From Poseidonibacter lekithochrous (GTDB lineage Bacteria; Campylobacterota; Campylobacteria; Campylobacterales; Arcobacteraceae): a stretch of DNA of 64,000 nt. Of the stretch, positions 38,361 through 42,831 are shown piece by piece (position 1 is the first letter of the stretch; every line of letters starts with the position of its first letter). A program made the position numbers and the translations under genes. The stretch covers positions 186,001 through 250,000 of the forward strand of contig NZ_JAHKQT010000017.1 in NCBI RefSeq assembly GCF_018861145.1. The letters run 5' to 3'. The notes below the pieces were generated by a model that ran no database searches, was not told the DNA's origin, and saw only the letters and a list, made by a program, of their open reading frames with translations.

Positions 38361-38437
38361 CGGAGTGTAGCGCAGCCTGGTAGCGCACCTGGTTTGGGAC
38401 CAGGGGGTCGAAGGTTCGAGTCCTTTCACTCCGACCA
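38361..38437 (+). tRNA. tRNA-Pro(TGG)
   Basis: 77 bases with encoded CCA. Acceptor CGGAGTG pairs with CACTCCG; anticodon loop TTTGGGA gives TGG; T-loop GTTCGAG. First gene after the promoter. Confidence 0.97.
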
Positions 38438-38445
38438 TTATATGT

Positions 38446-38523
38446 GGTGGGTATAGCTCAGTTGGTTAGAGCATCGGTTTGTGGTACCGAGGGTCGCCGG
38501 TTCGAACCCGGTTACCCACCCCA
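38446..38523 (+). tRNA. tRNA-His(GTG)
   Basis: Includes the extra 5' G (G-1, 38446) pairing with C73, the identity mark of tRNA-His. Acceptor GTGGGTA/TACCCAC, anticodon GTG in TTGTGGT, encoded CCA. Confidence 0.97.
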
Positions 38524-38534
38524 TTTTTTAAATT

Positions 38535-38611
<77 letters not shown>

Positions 38612-38640
38612 TTTTTAATCTTTTTAGAAAAAAAGATAAT

Positions 38641-38725
38641 GCGGATGTGGTGAAATTGGTATACACGCTAGACTTAGGATCTAGTGCTTTACGGCGTGAA
38701 GGTTCAAGTCCTTTCATCCGCACCA
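38641..38725 (+). tRNA. tRNA-Leu(TAG)
   Basis: 85 bases with the long variable arm of class II tRNAs (TGCTTTACGGCGTGA region), acceptor GCGGATG/CATCCGC, anticodon TAG, encoded CCA. Confidence 0.96.
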
Positions 38726-38767
38726 TTTATACTTAAAGTATCTTCAGTTTTCTGAATTTATACTTTT

Positions 38768-38844
<77 letters not shown>

Positions 38845-38847
38845 TTT

Positions 38848-38896
38848 AAAAAGCCTTGAATAAGAAGTTTTTAAAACTTTTGATTCAAGGCTTTTT
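38848..38896 (+). terminator. Intrinsic terminator or processing hairpin inside the tRNA array
   Basis: AAAAAGCCTTGAAT pairs with ATTCAAGGCTTTTT; the loop itself holds a nested AAGTTTT/AAAACTT stem. The T-run makes it a likely terminator of the first five tRNAs, leaving the last two to read-through or another promoter. Confidence 0.8.
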
Positions 38897-38916
38897 ATTT
38901 TTAAACTATATAGAAT

Positions 38917-38993
<77 letters not shown>

Positions 38994-39035
38994 CTTTTTA
39001 ATAATTTTAATTTCTAATAGGAATTAATATCAGGT

Positions 39036-39112
<77 letters not shown>

Positions 39113-39168: not shown

Positions 39169-39259
39169 GCTCAATTTTTATGTATAAAATTATTTCTTAA
39201 TTATTAGCTTTAATATATTATACTGTCACTTCAGATAAACAATAATCATTGGAGCTTTA

Positions 39260-42199
39260 ATGTCAAACTATATTGATTTTATGATACAAGCAGATGAATT
39301 AAATCAACTATTAGAAAGTAAGAAGAAAATAGTTATTATTGATGTTAGATTAAAAGAAGAGTATGATAATGGGCATATTGATACTGCTGTAAATTTCACT
39401 GAAGTTTTTACTTATTTGCCAAAGGGTATTACAACAAGAAAAGAGAAAGAATCTTTTATCAGCTTTTATGAAGAATTATTCTCAAAAGCTGGTGTTTGTA
39501 AAGATGAAATAGTTATATTCTATGAAGATAAATTTACACTAAAATCACCTCGTGGTTTAAGTATTCTAAAATATTTGGGGTATGATGAAGATAAGATAAA
39601 AGTACTAGATAGTGGTTTTCTTAATTGGAAAGAAAGTGGTTATAAAATAAGTAAAACTACTACTCATAATATAAAAAAGAAATTTATATCAAGAATAGAT
39701 GAAAGCTTTTTTGTAGATTATAATGAAATGTTAGCATGCATAGATAATCCAAAAATTATTAAACTAGATGTTCGTGATAAAGATGAGTGGCTAGGTATTA
39801 GTTCTTCACCTTTTGGAATAGATTTTGCTCCTAAAAAAGGAAGATTGCCTAATGCTATTTGGATAGAGTGGTATAAATTTATTACTAGTAATATGTTAAG
39901 TGTGGAATCACTTGATAAAATACAAAAAGAGTTAAAACAAAAAAATATAAAGAAAAATGATGATATTATTTTATACTGTTTTAAAGGTGCAAGATTATCA
40001 AATACTTATATAGCACTTAGAAAACTAGGATATAATCATATTAGAGTATATTTCGCTGGATGGAACGAATGGTGTAGAAAAGAAAATGCACCAATAATTA
40101 ATGAAGTTGAAAATGATAATAATCCACTTTTAAAAGAAAATATTGCATTAAAAAATATATTAGATTCTATTTATTCAAAAAATTCTAATTTAATTGATTT
40201 CCCAAAGTACAATAAAGAACCAGTATTTGCATTTAATAGAGAGGGTAATATTAGTTTTGAAAATAAAGCAAAGAAAGTAATACTTCCTAGTATTACAAAG
40301 ATATCTGATATCTTTCCTAGCTTTGAAACTGAAAATATCTATAATATGATAGATAATCAAGAAAATAAGAGTATTACAATACAAGTAAAAGATAGATATT
40401 TTTTATTAAACTGTATAGGTTCTAGAGGTTCAAATAATATACTTATTTATGGTTTTGAAACTACAGAAATAGAAAATTTAAATAAAAGTTTATCTTCTCA
40501 ATATAAACTAGTTCAAAATATCATAAATACAGTTCCCGTAAGAATATTTTGGAAAGATAGAAATTGTAGATATTTAGGTGCAAATAAATTATTTCTAAAA
40601 GATGCAGGAATTAAAAACATAAATGAAATTATTGGTAAAACAGATTTTGATATGCCTTGGAATAAAACAGAAGCTCAATATTATGTTGAGGATGATTTAA
40701 AAGTAATAAATACAGGAGTTGAGAAAATTAATTTTGAAGAATTTCAAACAAATGGAGATGGAAAAACAGCTGTTATATTAACTTCTAAAATACCACTTAG
40801 AGATGAAAATAATTATATTATTGGGACATTAAGTTCATATGCAGATATAACACATCAGCGTAAGATGGAATTAGAATTAAAAAAACAAAAAGATATTTTT
40901 ATTCATCAAGCACATCATGATGCTTTAACTGGATTACCAAATAGAGTTCTTTTTCAAGATAGGTTAGAACAATCAATACAATCTTCAAAACGAAAGAGAA
41001 CAAAAACAGCGCTATTATTTATAGACCTTGATCATTTTAAAGAGATTAATGATTCTTTTGGACATGATATTGGTGATGAAATCCTGAAAATTGTTAGTAA
41101 TAGATTAAAAAAAGTTGTTAGAGAAGAAGATACTGTGTCAAGATTAGGTGGTGATGAATTTACAATAATCTTAGGAGAATTAACTGAAGCTCAAGACAGT
41201 TCAAAAATAGCTAAAAAAATATTAAAAGTTTTATCAAAACCTATGTATACTAGAAATAATACATTTTATATTTCAAGTAGTATTGGAATTAGTATATATC
41301 CCAATGATGGAGAATCAACTCAAAACCTTCTTAAATTTGCAGATTCTGCTATGTATAAAGCAAAAGACGAAGGTAGGAATAACTTCCAGTATTACAACTC
41401 TTCTATGACAGAACTTGCATTTGAAAGAGTTGTTATGGAGGCAAGTCTTAGGAGATCATTGAAAGAAGATCAATTTGTAGTTTATTATCAAGCACAAATA
41501 AATGGAATTACAGATGAAATAATAGGACTAGAAGCCTTAGTCAGATGGGAACACCCAACAATGGGGATTGTGCCACCAGATAAATTTATTTCTTTAGCTA
41601 AATCAACAGAATTAATTGTTGATCTAGATAGAATTGTTATGGAAAAAGCTATGAGTCAAGTCTCAAAGTGGTATAAAAAAGGTTTAAATCCAGGTATTTT
41701 AGCTATGAATCTTGCAGTAAAACAACTTTATGAAAAAGATTTTATAGAAATGTTTGAAGAACTTATGGTAAAGACAGAATGTAAAGAACGATGGATTGAG
41801 TTAGAAGTTACAGAAGATCAGATTATGACAAATCCAGAAAAAGCTATTAAAATTCTTAGTAAAATAAGTGATTTAGGTGTTGAATTGGCAGTTGATGATT
41901 TTGGAACAGGTTACTCTTCTTTAGCATATTTAAAAAGGTTACCAATTGATAAGCTTAAAATCGATCAAGCTTTTGTCAGAGATTTACCTGATGATGAAGA
42001 AGATGTTGGAATTACACAAGCAGTTATAGCTTTAGCAAAGAGTTTAAATTTAAAAGTTATTGCAGAAGGTGTTGAAACAAAAGAACAAAAAGATTTTTTA
42101 GTTAAAAGTGGTTGTATAAATATCCAAGGATATTTATATTCTAAACCTATACCTGCTGATAAATTTGAAATACTTCTTAAAAAAGGATTTAAAATTTAG
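39260..42199 (+). CDS. Tandem rhodanese - PAS - GGDEF - EAL protein
   Basis: A 979-residue soluble multidomain protein. Two rhodanese domains form the N-terminal third (about 7-130 and 150-278): the first has no cysteine in its active loop (YEDKFTLKSPRG), the second has Cys240 in CFKGARL, like SseA-type sulfurtransferases. Then come a degenerate PAS-like stretch (about 318-405), a PAS domain (about 413-535), GGDEF (630-634) with an intact RxxD inhibition site (REED, five residues upstream), and EAL (758-760). Both cyclic-di-GMP motifs look functional. It likely links sulfur chemistry to second-messenger level. It has its own promoter region after the tRNA terminator and no partner gene. Confidence 0.9.
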   Translation: MSNYIDFMIQADELNQLLESKKKIVIIDVRLKEEYDNGHIDTAVNFTEVFTYLPKGITTRKEKESFISFYEELFSKAGVCKDEIVIFYEDKFTLKSPRGLSILKYLGYDEDKIKVLDSGFLNWKESGYKISKTTTHNIKKKFISRIDESFFVDYNEMLACIDNPKIIKLDVRDKDEWLGISSSPFGIDFAPKKGRLPNAIWIEWYKFITSNMLSVESLDKIQKELKQKNIKKNDDIILYCFKGARLSNTYIALRKLGYNHIRVYFAGWNEWCRKENAPIINEVENDNNPLLKENIALKNILDSIYSKNSNLIDFPKYNKEPVFAFNREGNISFENKAKKVILPSITKISDIFPSFETENIYNMIDNQENKSITIQVKDRYFLLNCIGSRGSNNILIYGFETTEIENLNKSLSSQYKLVQNIINTVPVRIFWKDRNCRYLGANKLFLKDAGIKNINEIIGKTDFDMPWNKTEAQYYVEDDLKVINTGVEKINFEEFQTNGDGKTAVILTSKIPLRDENNYIIGTLSSYADITHQRKMELELKKQKDIFIHQAHHDALTGLPNRVLFQDRLEQSIQSSKRKRTKTALLFIDLDHFKEINDSFGHDIGDEILKIVSNRLKKVVREEDTVSRLGGDEFTIILGELTEAQDSSKIAKKILKVLSKPMYTRNNTFYISSSIGISIYPNDGESTQNLLKFADSAMYKAKDEGRNNFQYYNSSMTELAFERVVMEASLRRSLKEDQFVVYYQAQINGITDEIIGLEALVRWEHPTMGIVPPDKFISLAKSTELIVDLDRIVMEKAMSQVSKWYKKGLNPGILAMNLAVKQLYEKDFIEMFEELMVKTECKERWIELEVTEDQIMTNPEKAIKILSKISDLGVELAVDDFGTGYSSLAYLKRLPIDKLKIDQAFVRDLPDDEEDVGITQAVIALAKSLNLKVIAEGVETKEQKDFLVKSGCINIQGYLYSKPIPADKFEILLKKGFKI

Positions 42200-42270: not shown

Positions 42271-42831
42271 ATGGCAAGACCTGTAGAATATGATTTAAAT
42301 AATGTACTTGATAATGCAATGGAGCTTTTTTGGCAAAAAGGATATGAAAATGTATCAATGGCTGAATTAGTTGAGCATACAAGTTTAAATAGAAGAACTA
42401 TGTATTCTTTATTCAAAGATAAAGAAGGTATTTTCAAAGATTCACTTGATAATTACTATTTAAAAAGATCCTCAAAGATTATTACACTTTTAAAAGATAA
42501 TCCAGGAAAAAAAGGTATAGAACTTTTTTTAACAAACTTCTCTTTTCATGATAAGTTTAAAGGATGTTTATTTAATAACTGCATGGGAAAAGGTGAGTTT
42601 ATGAATGATGATGCTTTTGAAATCCCAAAAAGCTATTTTGAAAGTTTACGTTTACAAATAGAAAAAAACTTGGAAGCGGCAAAAGAAGATGGTGACTTTA
42701 CTGGTGATGTTAAAACTATGGCACTTACAATTATGACTATTATTCATGGTTTTAATATTTATGGGAAATATAATCACTCTAAAGAAGAGGGCGAAAGTAT
42801 TATGAGAAATATTTTAAATATGATTAAATAG
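42271..42831 (+). CDS. TetR-family transcriptional regulator
   Basis: A 186-residue repressor with the N-terminal helix-turn-helix (VLDNAMELFWQKGYENVSMAELVEHTSLNRRTMYSLFKDKEGIF; recognition part LNRRTMYSLFKDK) and a helical ligand domain. Two cysteines in KGCLFNNCMG could act as a thiol switch. The closest neighbours, a DCC-type thiol protein and an Aat-like gene, lie on the other strand and end toward it, so the only evident target is its own promoter. Ligand is unknown. Confidence 0.88.
   Translation: MARPVEYDLNNVLDNAMELFWQKGYENVSMAELVEHTSLNRRTMYSLFKDKEGIFKDSLDNYYLKRSSKIITLLKDNPGKKGIELFLTNFSFHDKFKGCLFNNCMGKGEFMNDDAFEIPKSYFESLRLQIEKNLEAAKEDGDFTGDVKTMALTIMTIIHGFNIYGKYNHSKEEGESIMRNILNMIK

Follow-up and report, generated by a model that had tools for sequence, protein, structure and literature searches.

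Among described c-di-GMP enzymes, E. coli DosP and similar sensor–PAS–GGDEF–EAL proteins carry an N-terminal sensor followed by GGDEF and EAL domains. The sensor of DosP is a haem PAS, not a sulfurtransferase, and its haem has been discussed as an H2S sensor (PMC9918477). Persulfide has been tied to c-di-GMP level and biofilm through SqrR of Rhodobacter capsulatus (PMC9143464), but SqrR is a transcription factor that acts via gene expression and not a sensor domain on an enzyme. Thiosulfate is the signal of the ThsS/ThsR two-component sensor, which differs in being a histidine kinase, and the paper describing it makes no mention of rhodanese (PMC5408782). A census of c-di-GMP sensory inputs mentions neither rhodanese nor persulfide (PMC8846402), and in the open-access literature on rhodanese together with GGDEF, c-di-GMP or sensor kinases we found no description of a rhodanese–GGDEF or rhodanese–kinase fusion. 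A one-component sensor on a GGDEF–EAL protein is a known kind of system; a rhodanese as the sensor is new.

We analysed a 64,000-nucleotide stretch of DNA from Poseidonibacter lekithochrous (contig NZ_JAHKQT010000017.1, positions 186,001–250,000; hereafter the window), in which tandem rhodanese domains fused to PAS–GGDEF–EAL had been proposed from sequence reading. We found that the fusion is real: the ORF listing gives a single ATG frame of 979 codons without interruption, the opposite strand of the same interval has many stops, the Pfam domains (two Rhodanese stretches at 7.8e-33, PAS_4, GGDEF and EAL) all lie above their curated cut-offs, and full-length orthologues of 979 aa each, 80–81% identical, occur in two further genomes (L048 and L049). 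The features, in window coordinates, are as follows.

39251–39254, plus strand: GGAG ribosome-binding-like site, read from the sequence, five bases 5' of the ATG at 39260
39260–42199, plus strand: tandem-rhodanese / PAS-like / PAS / GGDEF / EAL protein, 979 aa
39290–39634, plus strand: N-terminal rhodanese, residues 11–125, inactive, with E89 (39524–39526) replacing Cys (Pfam, alignment)
39725–40078, plus strand: C-terminal rhodanese, residues 156–273, with active-type loop C240-F-K242-G-A-R245 (Pfam, alignment)
39977–39994, plus strand: active-site loop CFKGAR, residues 240–245, unchanged across 5/5 fused modules (alignment)
40073–40075, plus strand: C272 codon, Cys in 5/5 fused modules (alignment)
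40121–40174, plus strand: predicted helix/coil linker, about residues 288–305
40175–40474, plus strand: degenerate PAS-like domain, about residues 306–405
40532–40861, plus strand: PAS_4 domain, residues 425–534 (Pfam)
40910–41383, plus strand: GGDEF domain, residues 551–708, 1.3e-54, with I-site RxxD 621–624 and GGDEF motif 630–634 (Pfam)
41441–42148, plus strand: EAL domain, residues 728–963, 8e-71, with EAL motif 758–760 (Pfam)

The gene begins 148 bp past the last of seven tRNA genes (38361–39112), a cluster that includes two copies of tRNA-Arg(tct) and is overlain by a probably spurious ORF (38466–38726, minus strand). A TetR-like regulator (42271–42831) lies directly 3' of the gene; one is likewise found 3' of the L041/L048 orthologue and not in L049. 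Direct reading of the N-terminus revealed no evident signal-peptide-like or transmembrane stretch, so the protein should be cytosolic.

The two PF00581 stretches form a tandem in which the first domain is inactive and the cysteine loop sits in the second, and alignment places E89 and C240 at the equivalent positions, in keeping with the original prediction that one rhodanese lacks its cysteine and the other keeps Cys240. SseA/3-mercaptopyruvate sulfurtransferase (MST) and other tandem rhodaneses share this arrangement. The MST loop is CG(S/T)GVT, from which the CFKGAR loop of the window protein differs. The description of the protein as SseA-like thus stands in the general tandem-rhodanese sense and fails for SseA itself, since the match to NF008557 reaches 64.9 bits against a cut-off of 250. 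The window loop instead follows the C-x-K-x-x-R pattern of yeast RDL2 (Cys106, Lys108, Arg111), a protein without a signalling part, in which the loop-end Arg111 drives the decomposition of thiosulfate and is crucial to moving sulfane sulfur off it (PMC8533005). The loop residues of the C-terminal rhodanese appear compatible with a thiosulfate sulfurtransferase.

The GGDEF motif, the I-site (R621–D624) and the EAL motif are intact, in agreement with the earlier claim, and the phosphodiesterase residues are all kept (E758, N817, ELEVTE 847–852, D879 D880, K900, E936 and Q956). Furthermore, the GGDEF–EAL half aligns gap-free to the solved GGDEF–EAL protein 5m3c (1.2e-126). Because these catalytic residues are intact and the alignment is gap-free, both cyclase and phosphodiesterase activities appear possible.

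Between the rhodanese pair and PAS_4 we found a degenerate PAS-like domain, absent from the architecture first proposed. Residues 306–405 give no Pfam PAS match; the model of this region has PAS-like topology at pLDDT 78, and several of its top matches in the PDB are PAS domains with probability 0.9–1.0, yet the E-values are weak (best 0.011). In other Campylobacterota this PAS-like stretch turns up again, flanked by a YgaP-like transmembrane domain on one side and an HD-GYP domain on the other (L086:62-1156(-), L087:1348-2448, L088:1126-2226(-) and L090:1660-2733). YgaP is itself a rhodanese membrane protein, and because of this the HD-GYP proteins may be another link from sulfur to c-di-GMP. 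The predicted structure of the tandem-rhodanese module, run for four sequences, reached a pLDDT of 42; we therefore draw no argument from it on the fold or on the C240–C272 distance.

The central observation is that the N-terminal part of the protein occurs with more than one output. Residues 1 to about 400 are fused to a histidine kinase in two other Arcobacteraceae, G019 (L043) and the Halarcobacter MAG G136 (L050), at 61% identity, and there the output is HisKA–HATPase, with or without a PAS domain, instead of GGDEF–EAL. The breakpoint between the module and the swapped output falls just after the PAS-like domain. Five fused modules are thus known, with GGDEF–EAL in three genomes (the window genome, L048 and L049) and a histidine kinase in two (L043 and L050). 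At L043:5405-8634 an MsrA-like methionine sulfoxide reductase gene begins 80 bp after the kinase version, and no response regulator was seen among the genes adjacent to the kinase. Residues 1 to about 400 thus constitute a portable module, a part of the finding that had previously gone unnoted. Since the outputs exchange among classical types while the module and Cys240 stay, a pattern typical of sensors, the module behaves as an input, and from this pattern we conclude that the rhodanese module most likely works as a sulfur sensor. The reverse arrangement, in which the sulfurtransferase is the output and is controlled by PAS or by c-di-GMP binding, would suit the intact loop, which leaves the rhodanese potentially competent in catalysis, and EAL and GGDEF domains can serve as c-di-GMP receptors. 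We regard it as very unlikely, as it is the opposite end of the protein that swaps between the classical outputs GGDEF–EAL and HisKA–HATPase, and both GGDEF and EAL are intact here.

We examined the origin of the module with a maximum-likelihood tree of 59 tandem rhodaneses and a column comparison of 61 sequences (5 fused and 56 others). The five fused modules form one clade (support 99/99). Its sister group, supported at 100/100, consists of free-standing cytosolic sulfurtransferases from Nostoc, Paraburkholderia and Rhodobacteraceae that have a CFKG(A/S)R loop. The common clade and the shared loop place the module in this family. The free-standing enzymes, some of them encoded on Rhodobacteraceae plasmids, are 34–37% identical to the module over about 270 residues and have the loop, the SSSPY...GR motif and the WNEW motif in common with it; they differ in lacking fused signalling domains and in two residues, with Cys where the module has A190 and Ser where it has C272. 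Cys240 is present in 60 of the 61 sequences, and K242 and R245 in every fused and free-standing CFKGAR sequence compared. C272, in the motif WNEWC, is found in 5/5 fused modules and 0/56 others, its place being taken by Ser in all five nearest free-standing relatives and by Gly, Ala or Ser in the rest. Having been gained with the fusion, C272 suggests itself as a resolving thiol, and we treat it as a lead only.

By alignment, C240 and C272 are both kept in all five fused modules, a possible counterpart of the two conserved cysteines that bond through sulfur in SqrR/CstR/BigR-type persulfide sensors; Pfam detected no ArsR/CsoR-type DNA-binding domain of the kind found in those regulators in the window protein. 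The second cysteine, confined to the fused forms, would also suit a thiol redox sensor, in which Cys240, perhaps with Cys272, answers peroxide, NO or disulfide stress and the fold merely holds a low-pKa cysteine. That enzymes of c-di-GMP turnover sense redox state is well established (PMC8846402), and the MsrA-like gene adjoining one kinase version (L043:7441-8634) points the same way. A pure redox thiol would not, however, need the substrate-type residues K242 and R245, which are kept in 5/5 modules, and we judge the redox reading rather unlikely, if worth keeping in view. The rhodanese pair might instead dock onto a partner, such as a sulfur carrier or a sulfurtransferase client, and localise the enzyme with no persulfide signal. 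The N-terminal rhodanese is inactive, and a rhodanese domain with a non-enzymatic role has been described in TBC1D23 (PMC7274447), but the complete active-type loop and its cysteine do not vary among the five fused proteins or their free-standing relatives, and such docking strikes us as improbable.

Fusion of the rhodanese module to a signalling enzyme is rare. A distribution search, of the sort the original prediction called for, found the module in 5 of 104 Arcobacteraceae genomes (three GGDEF–EAL, two kinase) with scores of 778–824 bits, the next best match reaching 114; no copy was seen beyond the family among the genomes searched, which hardly cover other phyla. Of 397 Campylobacterota genomes sampled, only two gave matches at this level, and both belong to the same five. 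Among the matches listed for 40 genomes of the order, rhodaneses lie in frames of at most 417 aa, the exception being the window gene, whose two domains share a 986 aa frame. Scanning 84,980 species genomes by pattern, a method that reaches close relatives only, gave three relatives, all in Campylobacterota. A phage or mobile-element origin was considered and rejected: two phage records gave only a 23% SseA match, and no fused relative is named among the plasmid matches listed with annotation.

Rarity, together with a site 148 bp past a seven-tRNA cluster, a common kind of insertion site, would fit a recent neutral fusion in which the rhodanese is a domain-shuffling passenger without a signalling role. 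Purifying selection on the rhodanese part argues otherwise, the rhodanese domains having dN/dS of 0.15–0.27 versus 0.13–0.15 for EAL. Across five genomes the module has also persisted, at identities as low as about 60%, with its active site unchanged, and it has been retained with two different output classes. A passenger is, of all the explanations weighed here, the one to which we give the least credence.

A second pairing of tandem rhodaneses with signalling proteins, unrelated to the fusion, is common in Campylobacterota. Members of another Campylobacterota tandem-rhodanese clade, with signal-peptide-like N-termini, are encoded directly upstream of a membrane signalling gene on the same strand, with gaps of −4 to +21 bp (L099:2970-5858 (G000:C6), L015-L034, L056-L085 and L140-L147). 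The partner matches a GGDEF or kinase core in 33 of 34 distinct Campylobacterota loci, confirmed by Pfam in examples; at the 34th, the downstream ORF is type-A-like without a detected domain. Type A operons have GGDEF partners in 12 of 13 cases, and the 21 type B operons divide into 7 with GGDEF and 14 with histidine kinase partners, which rules out the simpler idea of GGDEF partners throughout. A further 17 rows of periplasmic tandem rhodaneses in this phylum have no such partner, with a GGDEF gene within 1.5 kb in three. No description of a periplasmic rhodanese with GGDEF–EAL/kinase operon was found in the open-access literature.

A type A operon is present in the window's own genome (L099:2970-5858). 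Just before it (L099:2-2872) lie a repeat-rich adhesin-like frame and a TpsB-type secretion-pore-like gene, an arrangement that recalls adhesin control by c-di-GMP receptors and was not seen in the other loci examined.

Like the fusion, the operons tie a tandem rhodanese to the same two output classes, c-di-GMP enzymes and histidine kinases, which alternate in both pairings. They differ in having a separate rhodanese gene, a signal-peptide-like N-terminus, another rhodanese clade and other active loops, YCx(I/V)G(R/K) or, in type B, YCDGGAEA. The maximum-likelihood tree separates the fused module from types A and B, which excludes derivation of the module from the periplasmic operon rhodaneses. 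Because the operon clade is separate from the fused clade, rhodaneses became linked to signalling on at least two occasions in this phylum. The type B loop is without K and R, and the fusion and operon systems thus need not sense the same molecule. Of the contextual evidence that the tandem rhodanese is sensory, the operon pairing, which lies outside the original prediction, weighs most in our view.

The window genome contains 38 GGDEF and 14 EAL matches, and its sox region includes SoxB (836 bits versus a cut-off of 550). With SoxB present in the same organism, thiosulfate would be a plausible substrate of the window rhodanese. Two rhodaneses, 217 and 225 aa long, are also encoded in the sox region (L104:2728-12715); both have a signal-peptide-like N-terminus and neither matches an NCBIfam family. 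At two other loci of this genome (L100:2237-5439 and L101:2663-5068) single-domain rhodanese genes adjoin GGDEF or GGDEF–EAL genes. The SQR-like protein at 931, earlier offered as a link to sulfide oxidation, makes a weak one, and we set it aside: it is a remote family match, scoring 173.5 bits against the curated SQR cut-off of 525, and lies 38 kb away.

Our favoured reading, held with modest confidence, is that the window protein is a cytosolic one-component sensor in which a CFKGAR-related tandem sulfurtransferase became the input of a GGDEF–EAL enzyme, with sulfane sulfur on Cys240 as the signal. Thiosulfate, polysulfide or a low-molecular-weight persulfide would charge Cys240, in the second rhodanese, with a persulfide, a chemically sensible sulfur signal. 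Cys272 may resolve this persulfide to a disulfide or polysulfide, in the fused versions only. The altered rhodanese pair would then act, via the coil and then the degenerate and second PAS domains, on a dimeric GGDEF/EAL pair, whose response would shift the c-di-GMP level. The sequences show the architecture, the intact motifs, the selection, the exchange of outputs and the conservation of both cysteines; we infer the ligand, the persulfidation, the role of Cys272, and the coupling with its sign. Against a rhodanese sensor we count that the second PAS could be the real sensor, that there are five fused copies only, and that rhodanese folds can dock without chemistry. In a more general form, which we put forward tentatively and with more doubt than belief, the tandem rhodanese would be a general sulfur-sensing input in bacterial signal transduction that Campylobacterota took up on two or more occasions, as a cytosolic fusion and as a periplasmic protein with a membrane GGDEF–EAL/kinase partner, and in the fusion the Cys240 persulfide, resolved by Cys272, would be the c-di-GMP switch.

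With a module that swaps outputs and operons of two genes, the idea of sulfur sensing becomes testable, and these systems could yield genetically encoded thiosulfate or polysulfide sensors. Sulfur oxidisers must choose between staying and swimming as the supply of sulfur dictates; a direct biochemical connection between sulfane sulfur and c-di-GMP would account for how they do so.
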